The position numbers were made by a program, and so were the translations under genes. The notes beneath the pieces are model-generated. The model was given only the letters and a program-made list of their open reading frames with translations. It did not search any database and was not told where the DNA came from. Below, piece by piece: positions 5,463 through 30,172 of a stretch of DNA of 32,550 bases. Source of the DNA: an uncultured Clostridium sp. (GTDB lineage: Bacteria > Bacillota_I > Bacilli_A > RF39 > UBA660). Within the stretch, counting starts at the first letter, position 1; every line of letters begins with the position of its first letter. The stretch lies in the NCBI GenBank assembly GCA_946402315.1, contig CAMIWC010000012.1:1-32550 (forward strand), read 5' to 3'.

Positions 5463-5487
5463 AAAATAAAAAGCACTAATGTGCTTT
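5463..5487 (-). terminator. Terminator of the Flp pilin gene
   Basis: A 7-bp stem (AAAGCAC with GTGCTTT), a 4-base loop and a T-rich tail on the minus strand. It overlaps the pilin TAA stop by two bases and faces the plus-strand terminator of the phosphoesterase. Confidence 0.8.
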
Positions 5488-5680
5488 ATTTACAATATCC
5501 ATCTCCAGGATTTTTTCCTTCGACATATTCTTTATCAGAAATGCTACATGATGTTTTAGTAATACTATCTTTTATATAACCACCAAAAGTATTAATAATT
5601 GCTATTACAATTACTGATATTAATGCAATTATAAGTACATATTCTACTAATGCTTGACCTTTATTATTATTCTTTTTCAT
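5486..5680 (-). CDS. flp: Flp/Fap-type pilin subunit
   Basis: A 64-residue prepilin. After a short basic leader (MKKNNNKG) comes QALVEYVLIIALISVIVIAI: cleavage after the Gly and Glu at +5 followed by Tyr are hallmarks of Flp pilins built by Tad machines. The C-terminal 25 residues contain two Cys (CS and the penultimate C) that could pair. ATG 5680 is preferred because a longer reading frame to 5740 would run through the -10 and -35 boxes. The gene is monocistronic, with its own promoter and terminator, about 20 kb from the Tad assembly genes at 24.5-30.2 kb, which are the expected export machine. Confidence 0.85.
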   Translation of the reverse strand: MKKNNNKGQALVEYVLIIALISVIVIAIINTFGGYIKDSITKTSCSISDKEYVEGKNPGDGYCK

Positions 5681-5711
5681 CACTAAATCACCATACCCTT
5701 TAGATACTTTA

Positions 5712-5740
5712 ATTTTATAATGATTGGCATTTTTTGTCAA
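5712..5740 (-). promoter_or_regulatory. Promoter of the Flp pilin gene
   Basis: TTGACA (5735-5740), 17 bases, TAAAAT (5712-5717): a strong promoter, fitting a highly expressed structural subunit. The divergent DUF192 gene starts only 30 bp away, so the two promoters must overlap. Confidence 0.8.
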
Positions 5741-11741: not shown

Positions 11742-12692
11742 CTAACCTATTGTTTCTAAAATATATTTATTTAATGTCTCATCATAATTAAAAATATAAT
11801 GATATTGTGAGAACATAGATGTGTCATTATTACAAGTATTAGTCTTCTCATTTAAATAATACTTGTTAGATATAATAATTAGTTTATTACCTTCTACTTT
11901 GATATCAGCTAACTCTTCTAGACATAATTTTTTTTCTTTTTCTAATATATGAAGATTTGTTTTATAGAATACTTTTAATTTTGAACTATATAAATTATTT
12001 ATTCCTACATACATATCTATTTCTGGTTCTTCATCAAATACAAGTTCTTCATTAAACATTTCTTTATATGTAGCTTTTACTTTATCTACTTTAGCATATT
12101 TTGTTTTAGTATCTAATGCAACTGCACATTCTGCTTGATAACCGCATCTAGTATTTGGATCAGCTTTGTAACAAGATGAACTACCTTGAGGTTTATTATC
12201 TTCATCTAAAGTTTCTAATTCTTCACAACTCTTTAAATCAGATTCATATGAATTCTCAATTGCATACATTAGTTTTAAATCATCATCAGAATTGGCACAT
12301 AATATTACAAGATCATCATCAGAATCACCACAATAATACAAATTACTATCTACTGCGGCAGCAAAAGATGCTCCATAATTATAAATACTATATTTGTTAA
12401 ATAATTGTTTTACTGTTTCACTATTCTTAGTAAGATCTGCCGGTTTTTCTACTGGAGTATTATCTTCTTTTTTAGACTCTTCTTTAGATTCTTCTTTTGT
12501 ATCTGATTCTTTTGTAGATTCTTTCTTATCCAATAAAGATGGTACAAAGAATGCAGCTACTAGACATAATACACCTAATAGAATTATTAGAATTACTACC
12601 TTAGATCCTTTTTTTGGTTTAGTAGTTGGTTCTACATTTTGATTAATAGTTTCAGTATTATTTTCTACTTTATTCTCTATATTATTATCCAT
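11742..12692 (-). CDS. Membrane-anchored extracytoplasmic protein, paralogue B
   Basis: A 316-residue protein of unknown function. A polar Asn/Glu-rich N-terminus ends in KPKKGSK, then a membrane segment (VVILIILLGVLCLVAAFFV, about 32-50) and VPSLL. A Lys/Glu/Ser linker (about 54-85) leads to an outside domain with at least eight Cys (YYCGD, LCAN, SCEE, SSCYK, RCGY, ECAV), probably disulphide-bonded. The plan (short inside tail, one helix, VPSLL, charged linker, then K-x-S-x-x-V-x-x-LF) is shared with the preceding gene, so they look like diverged paralogues. It starts one base after that gene's stop. No clear terminator follows before the rpsO promoter. Confidence 0.75.
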   Translation of the reverse strand: MDNNIENKVENNTETINQNVEPTTKPKKGSKVVILIILLGVLCLVAAFFVPSLLDKKESTKESDTKEESKEESKKEDNTPVEKPADLTKNSETVKQLFNKYSIYNYGASFAAAVDSNLYYCGDSDDDLVILCANSDDDLKLMYAIENSYESDLKSCEELETLDEDNKPQGSSSCYKADPNTRCGYQAECAVALDTKTKYAKVDKVKATYKEMFNEELVFDEEPEIDMYVGINNLYSSKLKVFYKTNLHILEKEKKLCLEELADIKVEGNKLIIISNKYYLNEKTNTCNNDTSMFSQYHYIFNYDETLNKYILETIG

Positions 12693-12693
12693 A

Positions 12694-13536
12694 TTATACT
12701 TCTTCTCTACTTACCCATATATAGTTTCCTGTTTGTTCTTCTTTTTCAAAAGTATAAGTAATAGTTAATGTAGGTTTATCATCAAAAGATGTTGTAGCTG
12801 TTGTAATTAGTTTTAATTCATTTCCATTTACTTCTATATCAGTTAATGTTTGTGATTTTAAAGTATCCCATATTTCTATTCCACCACCAAAAGTAAAATC
12901 TAAATAACTATCCATATTTTCATCATAATACCAATAAGTGAGTGGACTACTTGCAAATGATTCTTTCTTATAATTTGCTACTCCAAAATATTTAGTAAAT
13001 TGAGCTTTATAATCACTTTCTTTAAGTACTAATGTAGTATCTGTATCAGTAAATTCTTTTTTATATTCTTCTTGTGTTGGGAAATGTCCTGATTTCCAGT
13101 TACCTTCATTATCAATAAGATTATAGTATATGTTAGGATCTCCACAAGCTGCACTTAAATATTCACCACTAGTATCATTTGCAGTTAAAAATACAACATT
13201 TAAACTAGAACACTTCTTTGTTTCAAACTTATCATTAGAAATACTTTTCATAGTATAGTAGTTCTTATATAAATTACTCATGTCTTCTTCTGAAGCAATA
13301 ATATAATCAAAATCTTCTTTATCTTCTCTGAAGAATTCAAATAAATCTTGTACTACTTTACTATCTTTAGTAAGTGGTTCATCTTTTTTCTCTTCTTTCT
13401 TCTCAGGTTCAGTTGGTTTTTCTTCTTTCAATAAACTTGGAACAACTAAAGCAGCACATATTCCAATTACTGCAATAACAACTACTACTATAAAAGCTAT
13501 TTTCCATCCATTTTTCTTTAAATTTTCATTTTTCAT
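12694..13536 (-). CDS. Membrane-anchored extracytoplasmic protein, paralogue A
   Basis: A 280-residue protein of unknown function with the same plan as its downstream neighbour: a short basic tail, a membrane helix (IAFIVVVVIAVIGICAALVV), VPSLL, a Lys/Glu linker, DSKVVQDLF, then an outside domain with few Cys (KKCSS and AACGD). The ATG at 13536 is chosen because AAAGGAG lies eight bases upstream; an in-frame ATG pair at 13560 has no ribosome site and would overlap the previous gene. It is the middle gene of a three-gene set. A cell-surface sensor or adhesin-like role is possible but not shown by any motif. Confidence 0.75.
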   Translation of the reverse strand: MKNENLKKNGWKIAFIVVVVIAVIGICAALVVPSLLKEEKPTEPEKKEEKKDEPLTKDSKVVQDLFEFFREDKEDFDYIIASEEDMSNLYKNYYTMKSISNDKFETKKCSSLNVVFLTANDTSGEYLSAACGDPNIYYNLIDNEGNWKSGHFPTQEEYKKEFTDTDTTLVLKESDYKAQFTKYFGVANYKKESFASSPLTYWYYDENMDSYLDFTFGGGIEIWDTLKSQTLTDIEVNGNELKLITTATTSFDDKPTLTITYTFEKEEQTGNYIWVSREEV

Positions 13537-13549
13537 ATTTATTTCTCCT

Positions 13550-13777
13550 TTACTCATCATAAGAATCTTCTATTTCAATAGAATATTCTGTTTCATCAAT
13601 TCCTCCCATATCTTCTTCTGAAGGAATATCTTCTACATAATCATCTACTTGATCTTTCCAATCTATTTTCTTTTTAGATGGTTTATTAGTTCCGAAAGAT
13701 AAACATATTCCTAAAGCAAGAATAAATATTCCGATTAAAATAAATATTTTAGGTAAATCTTTTTTATCTACTTTCAT
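13550..13777 (-). CDS. Small single-pass membrane protein, acidic tail
   Basis: A 75-residue protein: a basic N-terminus (MKVDKKDLPK), one membrane helix (IFILIGIFILALGICLSFG), then a Lys patch and an extremely acidic tail (VDDYVEDIPSEEDMGG and more). It matches no family I know. An AGGAGG ribosome site gives a clear start. It is first in the set with the two larger anchored proteins (13 bases between its stop and the next start), suggesting a common membrane task. Confidence 0.7.
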   Translation of the reverse strand: MKVDKKDLPKIFILIGIFILALGICLSFGTNKPSKKKIDWKDQVDDYVEDIPSEEDMGGIDETEYSIEIEDSYDE

Positions 13778-15230: not shown

Positions 15231-15345
15231 AATAAAAATCTTCTAGAACAATGTAAGGACGATTTATCGCGGTTCCACCTTACTTATTCTAGAAGAATCT
15301 CTCTAATTATATAGCTCTGGGATTCCACCCCGTCATCGCTTCAAT
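15231..15345 (-). promoter_or_regulatory. T-box leader of glyS, unusually short
   Basis: The T-box core AAGGTGGAACCGCG (15267-15280) sits in an antiterminator-like helix (GTAAGG with CCTTAC). A hairpin joining TCTTCTAGAA (15287-15296) and TTCTAGAAGA (15239-15248), followed by T-runs, would terminate. Upstream is one short hairpin (AGC/GCT outer, GGG/CCC inner, loop GTGGAAT; 15313-15340) in place of a full Stem I. With the promoter at 15352-15380 the RNA ahead of the start codon is only about 130 bases. T-boxes sense uncharged tRNA, here presumably tRNA-Gly, but I find no glycine specifier in the canonical place. Confidence 0.85.
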
Positions 15346-15351
15346 AAACTC

Positions 15352-15380
15352 ATTTTAATACTTTTTTCTTAATTTGTAAA
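15352..15380 (-). promoter_or_regulatory. Promoter of the glyS T-box transcript
   Basis: TTTACA (15375-15380), 17 bases, TAAAAT (15352-15357), beginning immediately after the stop of the upstream gene. Confidence 0.65.
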
Positions 15381-15381
15381 G

Positions 15382-17496
15382 TTATTCAGAAACTACTTGG
15401 ATACTTCCAGCTTGATGAGTAACTGTTCCAGTTTCAAAACTTTGTGGTTTTGTAGTTGAACTAGTAATTGCTCCCCAATCAAATGCTTTTCCGGTTTTAT
15501 TAATTATTTTAGTAAATTTAGCATTGTTTGTAGCCGCTTTACCTAAAGCACCATTTTTAATAGTAGTTACTGATGATGGTATAACAACTGTTGTAAAGCT
15601 TCTCCAAGTTAAATCTGCTTGAATATTCTTTAACGGACTTCCATCAGGACCTAAAGCTGGGAATGTTACTACTCCATTTACTCCGGCACTTGGTCCAGTA
15701 TAGTCTGTTACAACTGAATAATCTACTGTTCCTTTATTAACTTTATAAGCAAAACTATTCTTAATATATGAATTACTTGTAGTAGTTCCTGATCTATAGA
15801 AAGCTCCGGCTTCAATAGTAAGATTTGGAGTTTCTGATATATCCGGGAATGTTACTTCAGTAACTTTACTATCTAAGAAAGCATTACTTTTTATTGTTTT
15901 TAACGTTACTCCTTCTTTAGTAGCTGGAATAACTACTGTAGAATCGGATACTCCTCCACCATAACTTACAATTGTTGAATAATCCCATTTTCCTTTACCT
16001 GTTGTTCCATCAGCTACTCTTGCGTAGAATATACCATCTTGTCCTGTCATTTTATTAGTAACAAATGCTCCTGTTCCAATAGATGTTACAGAATCAGGAA
16101 TTGTAACTGACGTTAATTGATTTCCTCTAAAGGCACTACCACCTATTGTTTTTAACCCTTCTGGTAATTCAATAGATGTTAATTTATTTGATCTAAATGC
16201 TGTTCCTCCAACTGATACTAGATTAGCAGGAAGATGTACGCTTGTTATTGAATTATTATAGAAACAACTACTACCTAAAGTTGTAACACTATCAGGAATA
16301 TAAACACTACCTTTTAGTTTAGTACCACTAAAGGCACCAGAGGCAATTGTTTTTAATTGGTACCCATTTTTCCATTCAGGAATAACTAGATTTTGAGTAC
16401 CAGTTCCACCATAAGCAACTATAGTCGTATAATCTTTTGTTCCATCAGCATTTGTTTTATAAACAAACATATTATTATCAGGGAAATTATTATTAGCATA
16501 TACTCCATCTCCTAAAGTAGGATTACCATTTAATCCATCTTCAGTTAAACAGTTACTTTGGAAAGCATATGATCCAATCTTAGTTAAAGATGATGGAAGA
16601 TCAACATGACAAATATGGTTATTAGCAAAAGCATATGAACCTATTTCTTTAATACCTTCTGGCATAATTAATTCTTGTATTTTTGAATTATAGAAACTAT
16701 ATGAATCTACAGATACTATAGTTCTTGATAATTTTACATAACTTAAATTATTTCCTTGGAAAGCAGCATAACCAATAGTTCTTACTCCAGCATAAGAAAT
16801 AACTTTTTTAATACCTTTATTTCTAAATGCACCATCTCCAATAGCAGTTACTGTATAATCTCCTATCTTAGAAGGTATATCTACTTCTAATCCACAATTA
16901 ACATTATAATTAGTTATTGTTATAGTATTCTCTCCATTTAAAGCAAACTCATAACATTCTGAACCTTCATCTAAAGGTACATTAATAGCTGGTTCAGTAT
17001 GAGTAGTATTCCCACCATCATCAACTATTGTTACATTATCTCTTCCTCCTACAGGATAAGAATCATTTATATCAAAATCATCTGTTACATAAATCTTTCC
17101 TGGGGTTAAATTTTTTTCTTCAGTAATATCTATTCTATGACCAGTTTCATCTACACTAGTCCAGTAATAAACAAAAGAATTATCTTCTTTAATAGTTACT
17201 ATTACATATGCTTTAACCCATTTACCAAATGGACTTTGTTTAATAGTACCATCACCAGTTTCTAGATTGTTTATATCAAAATAATAAACTGTATCTTTAT
17301 CTCTAGCAATTAAATCATTTCTAGCTAACATATTAGCAGTTATTTGAATATATTCTCTAGCAATATCTATATACATTTTTCTTTTACTACGATCAATATA
17401 TCTAGAAATACCAGCAATACTTATCATAAGAACTAATCCTAGGATAACTGCTACTGCAAGCATCTCTATTAAAGTAAACCCTTTTTTATTTTTCAT
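15382..17496 (-). CDS. Type IV prepilin-like protein fused to BspA-type leucine-rich repeats
   Basis: A 704-residue surface protein. The N-terminus is a textbook type IV prepilin: KNKKG, cleavage site, FTLIEMLAVAVILGLV with Glu at +5, then a long α-helix and a small pseudopilin-like domain (INNLETGDG, SPFGKWVKAYVIVTI, to about residue 145). After a Gly/Asp/Thr linker (150-180) come BspA/LRR_5 repeats from about 205 to 650: units such as VTAIGDGAF, IKEIGSYAF, LTKIGSYAF, LKTIGGSAF, VTSIGTGAF. Three non-LRR inserts with DYxTIV-YGG patterns interrupt them. BspA-like repeats serve in adhesion. Start 17496 follows AGGTG; an in-frame GTG lies at 17505. A pilus-tip adhesin is my inference. Confidence 0.9.
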   Translation of the reverse strand: MKNKKGFTLIEMLAVAVILGLVLMISIAGISRYIDRSKRKMYIDIAREYIQITANMLARNDLIARDKDTVYYFDINNLETGDGTIKQSPFGKWVKAYVIVTIKEDNSFVYYWTSVDETGHRIDITEEKNLTPGKIYVTDDFDINDSYPVGGRDNVTIVDDGGNTTHTEPAINVPLDEGSECYEFALNGENTITITNYNVNCGLEVDIPSKIGDYTVTAIGDGAFRNKGIKKVISYAGVRTIGYAAFQGNNLSYVKLSRTIVSVDSYSFYNSKIQELIMPEGIKEIGSYAFANNHICHVDLPSSLTKIGSYAFQSNCLTEDGLNGNPTLGDGVYANNNFPDNNMFVYKTNADGTKDYTTIVAYGGTGTQNLVIPEWKNGYQLKTIASGAFSGTKLKGSVYIPDSVTTLGSSCFYNNSITSVHLPANLVSVGGTAFRSNKLTSIELPEGLKTIGGSAFRGNQLTSVTIPDSVTSIGTGAFVTNKMTGQDGIFYARVADGTTGKGKWDYSTIVSYGGGVSDSTVVIPATKEGVTLKTIKSNAFLDSKVTEVTFPDISETPNLTIEAGAFYRSGTTTSNSYIKNSFAYKVNKGTVDYSVVTDYTGPSAGVNGVVTFPALGPDGSPLKNIQADLTWRSFTTVVIPSSVTTIKNGALGKAATNNAKFTKIINKTGKAFDWGAITSSTTKPQSFETGTVTHQAGSIQVVSE

Positions 17497-17531
17497 ACTA
17501 TTCACCTACTATAATAATAACATTTATATAT

Positions 17532-17562
17532 AAAAAAAGAGAATTATTTTATATTCTCTTTT
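17532..17562 (-). terminator. Terminator of the prs-yitT transcript
   Basis: A perfect 10-bp stem (AAAAGAGAAT with ATTCTCTTTT), an 8-base loop and a T-run, 12 bases after the yitT stop. Confidence 0.88.
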
Positions 17563-17573
17563 ATATATTTTAC

Positions 17574-18473
17574 TTATTTATGTAAATTTTTTCCTTTTTT
17601 TATTTTTTTTCTAATCCTATCTTTTTCTTTATTAGATTTAATATGTTTACCAATTATTTCAGATATATCAGAAACAGTTACAAAAGCACTATAATCTTCA
17701 TCATTAATAATTCTTCTTAATTCAGGAATCTCTAATCTAGTTAGTACTACATATAGAATATCTTTTTTACCACTAATTAAACCAGAACCCTTCATAATAG
17801 TACAAGTTCTACCTAATCTTTCATATATTAAATCAGATATTTTATCAGAGTAATCTGTAATAATCATTACTTCTTTAGCTTGAGTTAATCCTTCACTAAC
17901 AAAGTCTATTACTTTGAAAGTAATTACATACGTAAGAAGTGAATATAAAGCTCTATCTATTCCAAAGAAAAATCCAGCAGTACCAAAAATAATCATATTA
18001 AATAGGAGTACTACTTGTCCTACTGAAAGAGATGTATTTTTACTAATTACAATAGCAACAGATTCAGTACCATCTATACATCCACCAGAACGTATTACAA
18101 GACCAACACCTATACCTAAAAGAGCTCCTCCGTAAACTAATCCTAGTAATGGATCTCCAGTTAATGCTGGACTAGTTGCAAACATTTCCAAAAGAATTGA
18201 AAACAATCCAATACTATAAAGAGCTTTAAGCAAGAATTGTCTACCTAAATTACGATATCCTACATAGATAAATGGAATATTAATAAAGAATACTAATAAA
18301 CCTAAATTAATATTAGATAATTTATGAATAATAATTGATATACCAGCAACTCCTCCATCTAAAATAGAATTAGGTATTAAAAATTCTTCTAGAGCAAATG
18401 CTGATAAAAAGGCACCAATAGTCATTCCTAAAAAATCTAGTAATACTTTTATTTCTTTATTATTGTGTTTCAT
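17574..18473 (-). CDS. YitT family membrane protein (DUF161/DUF2179)
   Basis: A 299-residue integral membrane protein of the YitT family. Five or six membrane segments lie in residues of about 10-195, with typical segments EEFLIPNSILDGGVAGIS and the IRSGGCIDGTESVA loop. A soluble DUF2179 domain follows (about 205-280: VMIITDYSDKISDLIYERLGRT, DILYVVLTRLEIPELRRII). The tail is Lys-rich. The transported substrate, if any, is unknown. It starts 31 bases after the PRPP synthetase gene with its own GGTGATG ribosome site, so the two are probably one transcript. Confidence 0.9.
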   Translation of the reverse strand: MKHNNKEIKVLLDFLGMTIGAFLSAFALEEFLIPNSILDGGVAGISIIIHKLSNINLGLLVFFINIPFIYVGYRNLGRQFLLKALYSIGLFSILLEMFATSPALTGDPLLGLVYGGALLGIGVGLVIRSGGCIDGTESVAIVISKNTSLSVGQVVLLFNMIIFGTAGFFFGIDRALYSLLTYVITFKVIDFVSEGLTQAKEVMIITDYSDKISDLIYERLGRTCTIMKGSGLISGKKDILYVVLTRLEIPELRRIINDEDYSAFVTVSDISEIIGKHIKSNKEKDRIRKKIKKGKNLHK

Positions 18474-25276: not shown

Positions 25277-25972
25277 CTAATTTAATTTTAAATATTCTAT
25301 TATTACTGGTGTTAAAATCAGTAACATTATTAACGGTATATAGAATAATACCGATATAACAGATACCTTTATAGGAATCTTGTTAATGATTGCTTTAATC
25401 TTTAATACTTGTCTATCTCTAATATAATCTATTTGATTATATATATCTTCAATAATATCATTACCTAAAGTATTAGATTCACTTATATGAAGAATAATAC
25501 TATTTACTTCATCTGATGGAAGTCTTTCTCTTAATGAATCAAGCACTTCATTAAGACCTTTTCCATATTTCATTTCTTCTAAAGCTATTTTAAATTCATT
25601 AGATAAATCATTATTAACATTTTCTGTAGCTACTTCAATAGAACTTTTAATACTTTTTCCAGATTCTAAAGAAAGAGCCATAACTTCAAAGAATTCCATA
25701 GCATTATATTCTAACTCTTCTTCTCTTTTTTTAATAGGTACTTCTACTAAGAAATAGTATAATGCTTTGTAATAAATAAAAGTTAAGATAGGACTAATTA
25801 AAAATCCCCAATCGAAGATATATAATAACACTAAAAAGATAATTAGAGAAGAGATAATTCTAAAGTTTAAGAAGAATATACCAGAAACATCTGATTTTCC
25901 CATCTTTAATTTCTTATTTAGTTCTTCCACTTTTTTACGAGGATAAATATGATACCAAAAACTATTTCTCAT
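25277..25972 (-). CDS. tadC: Tad pilus assembly protein TadC
   Basis: A 231-residue inner-membrane platform protein of the T2SF (GspF) family. Two hydrophobic segments near residues 35-75 are followed by a cytoplasmic region with MEFFEVMALSLESGKSIKSSIEVA and ISESNTLGNDIIEDIYNQ, then a last hydrophobic hairpin (VSVISVLFYIPLIMLLILTPV). With TadB it should form the base on which the ATPase TadA drives pilin extraction. The ATG overlaps the tadB stop (ATGA), showing translational coupling. Confidence 0.88.
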   Translation of the reverse strand: MRNSFWYHIYPRKKVEELNKKLKMGKSDVSGIFFLNFRIISSLIIFLVLLYIFDWGFLISPILTFIYYKALYYFLVEVPIKKREEELEYNAMEFFEVMALSLESGKSIKSSIEVATENVNNDLSNEFKIALEEMKYGKGLNEVLDSLRERLPSDEVNSIILHISESNTLGNDIIEDIYNQIDYIRDRQVLKIKAIINKIPIKVSVISVLFYIPLIMLLILTPVIIEYLKLN

Positions 25973-26952
25973 AATCTCACCTCGATATATACAATTTTTC
26001 TAATAATAATTATATAGAATACATATAAAGTAATTATTAATAATAAAGCAATAAATCCAATAGTAGTTGTAAATAAAGTTACAAAGTACCCAGGAGAGAG
26101 TAATAATAATATCAATACTAAGAATGGTGGTATCGCTACTAAAATACGATATACAAATCTAGCTTGACTAGAATTACTATTTAGTTCATCTCTTAGTTTT
26201 TTACGAGCTAAAGCATTCTTTTCAATAGAATCAAATACAGATACTATATTTCCTCCTGTTTTACTTAGAACACTAATAGAACTAGTTAAATAAGTAGCTT
26301 CTACACTATTTACTCTACTACTAAATCTTCTAAATGCTTCTTCAATATCAAGACCAAACTTAATATCTTCACTAATTTTCTTAAATTCTAAAGCAATTGG
26401 TCCTTTTAATTCTTTTGATACTAAATCAATTGCTTGAATAATACTCTTTCCTGATTTAAAAGCATTATTCATAACTACAATTGCTTCAGATATATCATTA
26501 TCTAATCTTTTATCTTCATATTTACCTACTACATATAAATAAATGTCATATAAGAAGAATCCAGATAAGAATGATATCAATATATTTATTAAAGTAATAG
26601 TATTATCTTTAAAGAATGAATGAATTATTAATAATAATAAACACATTAAACCTATAATAATCTTTCTACTAATATAATTCATATTAATTAGCATTTTCTT
26701 ACTACCAGAATATTTAATATATTTTTTACTATAATCATCAAATATATGTATTTTCATTAATCTTTTAGATAAACTTTCTTCTAAATACTTATAACTACTT
26801 TCCAATATATCTACAATAGAAGGAGTATCATCATCAAATTCTAAAGTATAACTATTAAATCTTTTAGATAATTTATAACTTCTATAAGTTTTAATAAGTA
26901 ACCATAACAATAATAGAATTAAACATATTAAGAATAGTACTAATAATTCCAT
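25969..26952 (-). CDS. tadB: Tad pilus assembly protein TadB
   Basis: A 327-residue membrane protein of the T2SF family. One N-terminal membrane helix (LLVLFLICLILLLLWLLI), a cytoplasmic segment, two membrane helices near 95-130, the conserved core (DISEAIVVMNNAFKSGKSIIQAIDLV, RFSSRVNSVEATYLTSSISVLSKTGGNI) and two more helices at the C-terminus. Partner of TadC in the inner-membrane platform. It starts 13 bases after the ATPase gene with an AAAGGAG site; its TGA stop overlaps the tadC start. Confidence 0.9.
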   Translation of the reverse strand: MELLVLFLICLILLLLWLLIKTYRSYKLSKRFNSYTLEFDDDTPSIVDILESSYKYLEESLSKRLMKIHIFDDYSKKYIKYSGSKKMLINMNYISRKIIIGLMCLLLLIIHSFFKDNTITLINILISFLSGFFLYDIYLYVVGKYEDKRLDNDISEAIVVMNNAFKSGKSIIQAIDLVSKELKGPIALEFKKISEDIKFGLDIEEAFRRFSSRVNSVEATYLTSSISVLSKTGGNIVSVFDSIEKNALARKKLRDELNSNSSQARFVYRILVAIPPFLVLILLLLSPGYFVTLFTTTIGFIALLLIITLYVFYIIIIRKIVYIEVRL

Positions 26953-26965
26953 AAATTACTCCTTT

Positions 26966-28309
26966 CTATTTTTTTGTAGTCTTCTTTGTTCCCTTTTTAG
27001 TTTTAGGTTCAAACATATCTAAAACTATACCTTTATTTTTAATCTTTTCATATATTTGTGGAATATCTTCATATAAAATGAATTCTCCATTTACTTCATT
27101 ACTCTCTGTAACTCCATGTTTTAAGAATGCAAATATATCTTTAATAATTATATTTTCTCCGTCAAATCCAGTTATTTCTGATATATTAGTAACTTTTCTC
27201 TTACCATCACTTAATCTTTCTACAGAAATAACTATATCAATAGCACTTTCTATATAACCTCTAATAGCTTTAATAGGAAGTTCTACTTCACTCATAAGAA
27301 TCATTGTTTCAAGTCTATTTAAAGCATCTTTAACTCCATTAGCATGTAATGTAGTTAATGATCCATCATGACCAGTATTCATAGCTTGTAGCATATCAAA
27401 TGCTTCTTTACCACGAACTTCTCCAACAATAATTCGATCCGGTCTCATACGAAGAGAGTTTCTAACTAAATCTCTAATTGTAACTTCTCCTTCTTTTTCA
27501 TAGTTCTCTGTTTTAGTTTCAAGAGATATGACATGTTCTTGTTTAAGACGAAGTTCTACAGCATCTTCAATAGTAATAATTCTTTCATCATTTGGAATAG
27601 ATCCAGAAAGAACATTTAAAAGTGTTGTTTTACCAGAACCAGTACCACCACAAACTAAGATATTTAATCTTGCTTTAATACAAGCATCTAAGAATGTAGC
27701 CATATATGGTGTTAAAGTACCATTTCCAATTAAACTATCCATAGTTTCAATATCATCTTTAAACTTACGAATAGTAACAACTGGTCCTTTTACTGATAAA
27801 GGTGGTATAATCGCATTTATTCTTGATCCATCAGGAAGACGAGAGTCTACCATAGGGTTACTACTATCTATCGTTCTACCTAGAGGTTGAATAATACGAC
27901 TTACGGTTCTAATAATATGTTCATCATTTATAAATGATACTTCATAATCACGAGAAATTATACCATCTACTTCAATATATATTTCATCTGGAGCATTAAT
28001 CATAATTTCTGTAACATTTTTATCTTTTAATAGTTCTGTGATTGGTCCAAATCCAGTTAATTCATTATTAATTAAATTATTTAAATAAGCTCTTTGTTCA
28101 TTATCTAAATTATATTCTACACAGAATTTATCTACTACTTCTTCTATTCTATTTGGTTCAGTTTCATGAGAATCTATTAATTCTTGAATAATCTTAATAC
28201 GTAAATCATCTAATTCTTCTTTATTTTCAAATATATCATAATCTGTATTACTATAAGAATTAAGATTATTATCTTCTAAATTGAACTCTTCCATCCAACT
28301 ATTGTTCAT
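26966..28309 (-). CDS. tadA: Tad/CpaF-family secretion ATPase
   Basis: A 447-residue hexameric ATPase of the CpaF/TadA branch of the type II/IV secretion superfamily, which powers pilus assembly. The N-terminal helical part (1-90) and [20 protein letters not shown] precede the RecA-like core: Walker A GGTGSGKT (221-228), [11 protein letters not shown] (Asp box, 246-255), Walker [11 protein letters not shown] (291-300) and His box [12 protein letters not shown] (313-324). A Lys/Thr-rich tail ends the protein. The start sits inside the end of the upstream tadZ-like gene behind GAGGAGG. Family assignment is secure. Confidence 0.96.
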
Positions 28310-29060
28310 AATCTTCCTCCTCTACTAAATTAAATATATTTTTACTAAAAGAATCATATTCTTTTTTACTATCACCAGTATATATTTCTCCAAAATTAAT
28401 TATTTTTTCATTCATAACTAATTCATTATAATTCTTAAGATATAGGTTATTACTAAGTGTATAATCTAATTTCTTAAGCACTGTTTTAATAGCGTATACA
28501 TCAAAGTTATCCTTTATATTTCGATAAGATTTATTTATAAGAATAACTAAATTATCTACTTTCATATTCTTAGTAATAGATATAAAACTCTTATTAGTTT
28601 CTAAGTTATAAGCATCATCACCTACTATATCAATTATCTTAAAACTCTTATCAAAAAGTAACATATTAATTGGACTTAATGTATTATTTGTATCAATTAC
28701 AATATAATCATAAGAATACATTAATAGATCCAAGGCTTGATTAAGAATCTTAGTATTTATTTTAGATGCAAATCTCATATCTATAGGAGCAGGAATAAAA
28801 GATAAATTTTCACGTACATAATAAATATATGGAGTAGAACTTTCAAACTTTTGATGTTCTAAATCATCACACATATTATAGATAGTCTTTTTAGGTTTAA
28901 TTCCTAAACTAAAAGCTAGATTTCCTCCATATAAGTCTAAATCAATTAAAAGAGTACTTTTACTTTTACTCAATATATCTGCAACCATCATAGATACAGT
29001 AGTTTTACCTACTCCACCTTTCATAGATGTTACAGTTATTATTTTTGCTTTATTCTTCAT
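28299..29060 (-). CDS. tadZ: TadZ/CpaE-like ParA-type ATPase
   Basis: A 253-residue P-loop protein of the ParA/MinD family. The deviant Walker A is SMKGGVGKTT (12-21); TLLIDLDLYGGNLAFSLG and YDYIVIDTNNTL give the two aspartate motifs. CpaE/TadZ proteins place the Tad machine, often at a pole, and its position between pseudopilin and ATPase genes fits that role. Unlike many TadZ proteins it has no N-terminal receiver-like domain, so it is shorter than usual. It overlaps both neighbours slightly, indicating tight coupling. Confidence 0.85.
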   Translation of the reverse strand: MKNKAKIITVTSMKGGVGKTTVSMMVADILSKSKSTLLIDLDLYGGNLAFSLGIKPKKTIYNMCDDLEHQKFESSTPYIYYVRENLSFIPAPIDMRFASKINTKILNQALDLLMYSYDYIVIDTNNTLSPINMLLFDKSFKIIDIVGDDAYNLETNKSFISITKNMKVDNLVILINKSYRNIKDNFDVYAIKTVLKKLDYTLSNNLYLKNYNELVMNEKIINFGEIYTGDSKKEYDSFSKNIFNLVEEEDYEQ

Positions 29061-29829
29061 CTAACCAACTCCTATTTAAATTATTTATATTTCTTATTCT
29101 TCCATTTGTTAATAATTCATCATATACTTTTAAATATTTAATATTAGATATATCAATAGTAAAATCACCAGTCATAATACTAATATCTTTTATATACTTT
29201 TCATTTAAATAGACTTTATTCTCTACTATATGTAATATATTTCTATTTTTTAAGGATACTAGAAAAGTATCATTTAAATATAAATTATAAGTATATATAT
29301 AAAGTTTATTATTACCAATAGTTAATAAATCATTATCTTGATTAGTAAGACCTATTTCTAAAGTTTTAGAAGTAAGATCTATACTTGATAGATTAATCTT
29401 ATTATCTACAACAGTATAATTATTTCCATCGTAGGAAGTAATCTTATTATCATTATTTTCTAAATATATTAATAACTTACTATTATAATCAACTTTCTTT
29501 TCTGATTTAACAGTATACTTTTTAAAACCAATTATCTTACCAAATACAGGTTTTATATCTTTATGAGATTTTACTGTAATAGTTTTAGCATCCATTTCAA
29601 TAGAGTCTATTACTATATCATCATCATTTAAATTATAAAGAGTAATAATATCAGATTCTACTAAATCTTTTTTATTTTTTATACTATCTAAAACATCAGT
29701 ACTTATATTATCTATTTTATTCTTGTTATAAATCATTAAAGATGAATCTACTATAGAGGCAACTAAAAGGAATATTATTGGTAATAATAATAAGAAAAGT
29801 ACTAATACTTGACCTCTATTATTATTCAT
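29050..29829 (-). CDS. TadG-like pseudopilin/anchored protein
   Basis: A 259-residue protein. The N-terminus NNNRGQVLVLFLLLLPIIFLLVASIVD resembles the TadE/TadG anchor: a short basic leader, Gly-Gln, then a long hydrophobic stretch with Pro. The Glu at +5 of true pilins is absent (QVLVL), so processing is uncertain. The rest is a β-rich outside domain full of Asn, Lys and Tyr with no motif I know; the von Willebrand domain of longer TadG proteins is absent. It overlaps tadE by eight bases and tadZ by eleven. Confidence 0.75.
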   Translation of the reverse strand: MNNNRGQVLVLFLLLLPIIFLLVASIVDSSLMIYNKNKIDNISTDVLDSIKNKKDLVESDIITLYNLNDDDIVIDSIEMDAKTITVKSHKDIKPVFGKIIGFKKYTVKSEKKVDYNSKLLIYLENNDNKITSYDGNNYTVVDNKINLSSIDLTSKTLEIGLTNQDNDLLTIGNNKLYIYTYNLYLNDTFLVSLKNRNILHIVENKVYLNEKYIKDISIMTGDFTIDISNIKYLKVYDELLTNGRIRNINNLNRSWLDEE

Positions 29830-30172
29830 TATTAATAGTCCTTTCTACTTTAACTACATAAGGATCAGCTATTATTTTATCCATTCCTGGAGTAATTAAA
29901 TCTACATTTTTAGTAAGAGTTATAGTAGTAATATCTCCATTTTTATAAATATCTACTGTTATATTTTTATATCCCATATCAGCTAAATAATTCTCTATAT
30001 CATCATAATCTTTATCTTTTTGATATTCTTCTATAGCTATACTAGTGATTCCTTCTAGTTTATTATTTTCTAGTATTATTCTTCCTAAATCTATAAAAGA
30101 AAAGAATAGTAGTATTATTACAGGTAATATAATAACAAATTCAATTAAAGCTTGACCTTTATTATTCCTCAT
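29822..30172 (-). CDS. tadE: TadE-like minor pseudopilin
   Basis: A 116-residue prepilin-like protein: leader MRNNKG, then QALIEFVIILPVIILLFFSFIDLGR, with Glu at +5 and the Pro of TadE proteins. The small outside domain ends in a β-strand (KVERTINNE). TadE-type minor pilins help start or stabilise Flp pili. First gene of the Tad operon, with its own TGn-extended promoter and an AAGGTG ribosome site. Confidence 0.88.
   Translation of the reverse strand: MRNNKGQALIEFVIILPVIILLFFSFIDLGRIILENNKLEGITSIAIEEYQKDKDYDDIENYLADMGYKNITVDIYKNGDITTITLTKNVDLITPGMDKIIADPYVVKVERTINNE

Follow-up and report, generated by a model that had tools for sequence, protein, structure and literature searches.

A candidate modular type IV pilin with BspA-type leucine-rich repeats in an uncultured gut bacterium of the class Bacilli

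How does a protein that begins as a type IV prepilin and continues as a long leucine-rich repeat (LRR) array reach the cell surface, and what might it do there? The question is raised by one gene of an uncultured Clostridium sp. (GTDB lineage Bacteria; Bacillota_I; Bacilli_A; RF39; UBA660), a gut bacterium of the class Bacilli with a small genome. The window, that is, the whole stretch of DNA analysed, comprises 32,550 nt (positions 1-32,550 of contig CAMIWC010000012.1 in the assembly GCA_946402315.1). The assembly is metagenome-derived, 0.96 Mb long and 74% complete. Here ‘G000’ refers to this source genome, and G001-G008 to other genomes of the same genus. An initial annotation of 15382-17496 had described a prepilin N-terminus (KKG, FTLIE) joined to about 450 residues of BspA repeats. 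Both parts are indeed present on the minus strand, with N_methyl, TIGR02532 and LRR_5 all above their cut-offs, and the repeats measure ~435 residues. The features of the gene and its flanks are as follows.

17525-17575, minus strand: terminator-like hairpin with a T run at the end of the YitT gene (fold z-score -3.9)
17502-17507, minus strand: Shine-Dalgarno sequence AGGTGA, preceding the ATG at 17496
15382-17496, minus strand: modular prepilin gene, 704 aa, ATG start (open reading frame, Pfam and Shine-Dalgarno)
17479-17496, minus strand: class III signal peptide MKNKKG (N_methyl and TIGR02532 above cut-off), predicted cleavage before F7
17119-17478, minus strand: pilin module, residues 7-126 (AlphaFold2, small-pilin homology, structural match to PAK pilin)
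16987-17118, minus strand: last stretch of the pilin part, with the linker, residues 127-170 (short pilins of five genus-mates stop here)
16885-16986, minus strand: LRR cap, residues 171-204, with two conserved cysteines, 181 and 201 (invariant in four orthologues)
15577-16884, minus strand: BspA-type LRR region, residues 205-640, with a 22-residue period (LRR_5; Foldseek 4gt6)
15385-15576, minus strand: conserved C-terminal cap INKTGK..FDW...TGT..H..G.I.V (orthologue alignment)
15252-15446 (core ~15252-15345), minus strand: T-box leader of glyQS (Rfam T-box 40.2 bits, E 8e-8)

A single open reading frame runs from the ATG at 17496 to the stop at 15382. A plus-strand reading was ruled out, its frame being full of stops, and an alternative GTG start at 17505 overlaps the Shine-Dalgarno sequence. 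The N-terminus has the features of a prepilin, namely a leader ending in G (MKNKKG/FTLIE), a hydrophobic helix and E at +5. N_methyl matches residues 1-26 with an E-value of 2.9e-7, above the curated Pfam cut-off. C-terminal to the pilin module sits LRR_5 (PF13306; E 2e-56, 189.8 bits against a curated cut-off of 27.7), with landmarks 22 residues apart (241, 263, 285, 307; 407, 429, 451, 473).

Structure prediction, which had been proposed as a check, gave a pilin helix and sheet followed by an LRR solenoid. In the AlphaFold2 model of the whole protein (mean pLDDT 86.8), E5 of the mature protein precedes a 50-residue helix (9-58) and a four-stranded beta sheet (69-126), and a linker leads to the solenoid, which starts at ~190. 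When the pilin module was modelled alone, pLDDT was 90.1 and the best structural matches were PAK pilin (top, Z 4.1), FimA and PilE, all at low Z (4.1 to 3.8); Foldseek with the lone module gave no significant match. In these models the pilin part takes a pilin fold, its long alpha1 lying against a beta sheet, with a low Z of 4.1 to PAK pilin. Its sequence shares 39% identity (E 4e-22) with another prepilin encoded by G000, 205 aa long. The LRR part is closest to structures of BspA-type surface proteins (4gt6, E 1.2e-10 with Foldseek), and Cys 181 and Cys 201 of its cap may form a disulfide. The protein ends with THQAGSIQVVSE, and its C-terminus has neither an LPXTG sortase motif nor a second hydrophobic segment, leaving the pilin helix as the sole hydrophobic segment and no other anchor. 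A sortase-anchored LRR adhesin was rejected, as the set of a C-terminal LPXTG, a hydrophobic tail and positive charges is not found.

The YitT gene lies upstream and glyQS downstream. Because a terminator-like hairpin follows YitT and a T-box precedes glyQS, the prepilin-LRR gene is probably transcribed alone, as its own unit. The T-box match overlaps the 3′ end of the gene and scores below the Rfam gathering score of 93, yet the GGUGGaACCGCG core is present. With this leader of its own, albeit one matched below the gathering score, glyQS is predicted to be regulated separately. A promoter scan near the gene found fewer sites than in shuffles. Elsewhere in the window, at 11742-13560 on the minus strand, two adjoining proteins (316 and 288 aa) both have an N-terminal hydrophobic segment and match no Pfam family.

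The same locus was compared in the nine genomes G000-G008, which are metagenome assemblies with uncertain gene counts near repeats. A pilin gene stands at the same place, on the YitT side of glyQS, in all nine, with other genes at the YitT position in G002 and G004. The LRR-fused form occurs in four (G000, G001, G006 and G007), and a short pilin-only form of ~163-186 aa in the other five (G002-G005 and G008). The short pilins stop close to the point at which the fused form passes into the LRR linker, and no LRR gene was found next door to them. LRR genes of ~275-280 aa in G002, G003 and G005 were rejected as split partners; they lie at another locus and have a plain N-terminal membrane segment. 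Among the four fused forms, the linker and the C-terminal cap are conserved. The locus with and without LRR in close relatives thus offers a natural before/after view of module grafting onto a pilin.

In G007 (JAFSDH01, a goat rectum MAG), two LRR pilins apparently stand in tandem (C16:1-2354 and the end of C23; L059 and L060), the assembly breaking inside the second copy. Their pilin residues are identical at 71/73 and 56/56 positions and their pilin-module DNA is 96-98% identical, with LRR identity of only 60%. At the LRR junction, third-codon-position identity falls from 95% to ~65%. The pattern in these sequences fits a carrier that recombined or was converted, with an outer module that diverged.

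In a glyQS+YitT tree, the LRR-bearing genomes do not form one clade, as G007 pairs with the short-form G004. One gain with several losses is therefore indistinguishable from transfer, and the tree does not support the view that the genus gained the fusion just once. G034, from another genus of the same family, has three open reading frames with a prepilin and LRR_5 (759, 919 and 1187 aa) on a different pilin module, so the fusion arose, or was passed on, more than once. One prepilin and LRR_5 gene of G034 (C2:26295-30000, L153), again with a different pilin module, also adjoins glyQS, on its opposite side.

Assembly machinery was sought in the whole source genome by family profile searches. 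PilB is encoded at C3:18943-20826 (450 bits with the PilB model, 486 bits with the GspE model), and PilC (C7:12964-14382) adjoins PilD (C7:14400-15161), a full-length A24 peptidase (A24_N_bact 1.6e-33 and Peptidase_A24 1.2e-11). The genome thus encodes the cognate peptidase, motor and platform; the initial annotation's reservation that it might have no prepilin peptidase falls away. N_methyl matches eight FTLIE prepilins. Large prepilins number four: the prepilin-LRR protein of 704 aa, one of 1532 aa carrying nine InlB-type B repeats, one of 1216 aa, and one of 548 aa with a weak DUF6273 match. Small pilins lie in tandem at C2:32474 and C2:33139, the latter being the 205-aa prepilin compared above. 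Since contigs C2 (125492) and C5 (2-67) end inside prepilin N-termini, the count of eight is probably a minimum; the assembly probably broke at repeated prepilins there, and further copies probably exist. A second type IV system (PilB, PilC, PilD and at least eight FTLIE prepilins) therefore exists besides Tad, as the annotation had suggested in one half of its alternative, the other half being a promiscuous peptidase. On that half, G000 has one A24 peptidase, and no more than one was found per genome across the genus, while Tad ATPases are also present. One PilD-type peptidase hence probably processes all prepilins and serves both the Tad and PilB/PilC systems. In the genus-wide family search, A24 was not found in G001 or G006, although G006, the closest relative, has the fused prepilin-LRR gene.

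What is observed, then, is a protein that starts with a complete prepilin N-terminus and a pilin module and carries a BspA-type LRR part C-terminal to them, together with machinery for cleavage and assembly in the same genome. We consider it likely, from these sequences and by analogy, that the protein is a modular type IV pilin that is assembled by PilB/PilC/PilD and displays an adhesive LRR on a filament. The annotation had likewise read it as an adhesive pilus subunit, a reading that fits all the evidence. BspA LRRs are not adhesins in every case, which counts against an adhesin. Also weighing against the proposed reading are the low Z of the pilin module to known pilins, the failure to find PilT and the lack of a PilM match in G000, the 74% completeness of that genome, and the fused gene of G006 in a genome where no A24 peptidase was found. 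By the proposed course, the single PilD would cleave the prepilin after G6. The PilB/PilC motor would build the pilin module via its helix into a filament, most likely at its tip, and the small tandem pilins would be the main component of that filament. The LRR solenoid would face outward and bind ligands of host, mucus or neighbour cells. In this scheme the pilin part would act as a constant carrier, and the LRR as an effector that evolution could add, remove or vary. The placing at the tip, the adhesion and the ligand binding are proposed here by analogy with Streptococcus sanguinis. A protein of this kind suggests a way in which uncultured gut Bacilli with small genomes may attach themselves to hosts or neighbours.

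Alternatively, the prepilin helix could anchor the LRR in the cytoplasmic membrane without ever being polymerised. Apart from the helix the protein has no hydrophobic segment, a C-terminal graft of >500 aa is bulky, and type IV pilins do form unassembled pools in the membrane. However, a bare anchor would not need a whole pilin module, and it is the entire module, not the helix alone, that is conserved in the short orthologues and in the tandem copies of G007. Bulky grafts in filaments also have a precedent in PilB of S. sanguinis. We therefore regard a membrane-held adhesin as rather unlikely.

The modular pilin could instead belong to a Com-like pseudopilus, where PilB/PilC/PilD without PilT would capture DNA or secrete proteins and the LRR would bind DNA or the wall. 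A T2SSE search of G000 (74% complete) gave only PilB, one TadA and one divergent Tad-like ATPase, with no PilT, and none was evident in G001-G006 either. PilM had no match in G000 and weak matches in relatives, of which only that in G002 passes the cut-off, with pieces summed. With PilT not found and PilM doubtful, the G000 machine appears not to be a standard type IVa pilus, nor a textbook case of that pilus as defined for monoderms (PMC6916266), and it may be a short pseudopilus. Models of ComGC, ComGD and GspG also match weakly. On the other hand, the LRR_5 modules are similar to LRR proteins of the cell surface (4gt6 and PcpA, for example), and the family has many different outer modules, unlike a conserved DNA-uptake tip. 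A role in DNA capture or secretion thus seems improbable.

Assembly by the neighbouring Tad system is very unlikely. The Tad operon noted in the annotation is there, as a cluster at 25277-30172 (TadZ/A/B/C-like and TadE-like) ~8 kb from the gene, with a Flp-like pilin at 5486-5740, and only one prepilin peptidase was found. However, the protein was rejected as a Flp/Tad pilin: its motif is FTLIE, as the annotation had pointed out, not that of Flp/TadE, Flp_Fap gives no match, the pilin module has its matches among FTLIE pilins, and the cognate PilB/PilC are present. Separately, C2:16833-19382 (L022) of G000 holds a second, divergent Tad-like cluster, with a CpaB-like protein and then a TadA/VirB11-like ATPase. 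Finally, an assembly join between separate genes for a pilin and for an LRR protein, a concern of the annotation to which the short pilin-only versions at the same locus might lend colour, has a negligible chance, since those short-form loci hold pilin only and full fusions with the conserved linker and cap recur in G001, G006 and G007, four independent assemblies with a fused frame at the same locus excluding chance or misassembly.

The modular pilin has many counterparts in relatives. G004 (SVAL01) has 31 N_methyl matches. The 25 prepilins compared there, on many contigs (L158-L181), have a common pilin module with a median identity of 86%, and 22 extend into a longer outer part, several types of which occur. 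Upstream of 15 pilin-module genes, one of which reads a truncated pilin, TTGACA-AAAGACC-G(7-9)-TA(T/A)(G/A)AT lies exactly 28 nt 5′ of the ATG. Runs of seven or more G number 16 in the 90 kb examined, every one of them within a promoter spacer of this kind. The poly-G-spacer motif was found in 42/193 family genomes (reversed-pattern control, 0/193) and in 0/14 genomes of other families searched. Its loci (TTGACA..G7-14..TANNNT) are L158-L177 in G004 and L192-L221 in G003, G005, G008, G018, G019 and G020; outside G004 it precedes other secreted or membrane proteins. Tract lengths in G020 are 9 to 14, homopolymer lengths from metagenome assemblies being uncertain. A motif search of G000 found no such site, and the window has no run of 7 or more G, hence no poly-G switch at the prepilin-LRR gene.

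Slippage in a poly-G spacer controls porA in Neisseria meningitidis (PMC3899988). Given this precedent and the layout in G004, it is a fair inference that the poly-G promoters are slipped-strand phase switches, and in the family they look like a family-wide phase-variation system. A narrow literature search found no paper on phase variation in RF39. The G004 sequences do not demonstrate gene conversion of the carrier: within payload families, synonymous differences are ~0.32 in carrier and payload alike, and stronger purifying selection on the carrier may be all that sets it apart there. The sharp carrier/payload junction is seen only in the G007 pair, not within G004 payload families.

We conceived that modular pilins in the family could form a switchable, exchangeable surface repertoire, for which the case is evenly balanced. 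One pilin carrier would bear outer modules such as LRR, DUF285, lectin-like, DUF6273 and InlB B-repeats, the carriers being homogenised by recombination as the outer modules diverge. Some species would switch carriers by poly-G slippage, and the prepilin-LRR protein would be a switchless member. Many carriers, varied outer modules and poly-G promoters, for which the reversed pattern gave no match, make the idea of phase-variable pili in commensal Bacilli open to test.

Among known systems, porA is like the modular pilins of G004 in its promoter, with poly-G in the -35/-10 spacer; the likeness lies in the sequence and concerns the relatives' promoters, not the prepilin-LRR gene. BspA-type surface proteins (4gt6, 4h09, PcpA 4cp6; HupY/LrrG) have the same LRR_5 solenoid of 22-residue units. 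The matched entries, described as proteins of the cell surface, align with the LRR part and no further; the present protein has the FTLIE pilin module in addition. The HupY/LrrG model scores 111.7, far under its cut-off of 1250. More than 1,200 modular pilins in 264 architectures are reported by Raynaud et al. 2021 (PMC8179133), and IPR026906, the BspA-type LRR region (PMC7140858), is among their 15 commonest extra domains in Fig. 8 of that paper. The search for the same domain pair, which had been proposed, thus found it there as well as in the fused orthologues of G001, G006 and G007, and the prepilin and BspA-LRR design is, going by that figure, already catalogued. In the part of the paper that lists it, the pair is a catalogue entry with its function called unclear, and comes without analysis of synteny, gain and loss, or machinery. 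Another close likeness is to PilB (vWA) and PilC (lectin) of S. sanguinis, which are described as adhesins presented by type IV pili (PMC8179133, PMC9934059). There too, a monoderm has an N-terminal pilin module, a short linker and a bulky functional module, with several modular pilins in one genome, and the adhesive role has been demonstrated. Unlike them, the present protein carries an LRR instead of vWA or lectin, and its gene lies by itself, apart from the rest of the pil genes; the machine of S. sanguinis is of the PilMNO/PilT type, whereas PilT and PilM were not found in G000. As far as was searched, the comparison adds three things to these systems: a syntenic locus with and without the LRR, the near-identical carriers of G007, and the repertoire under poly-G promoters in relatives.
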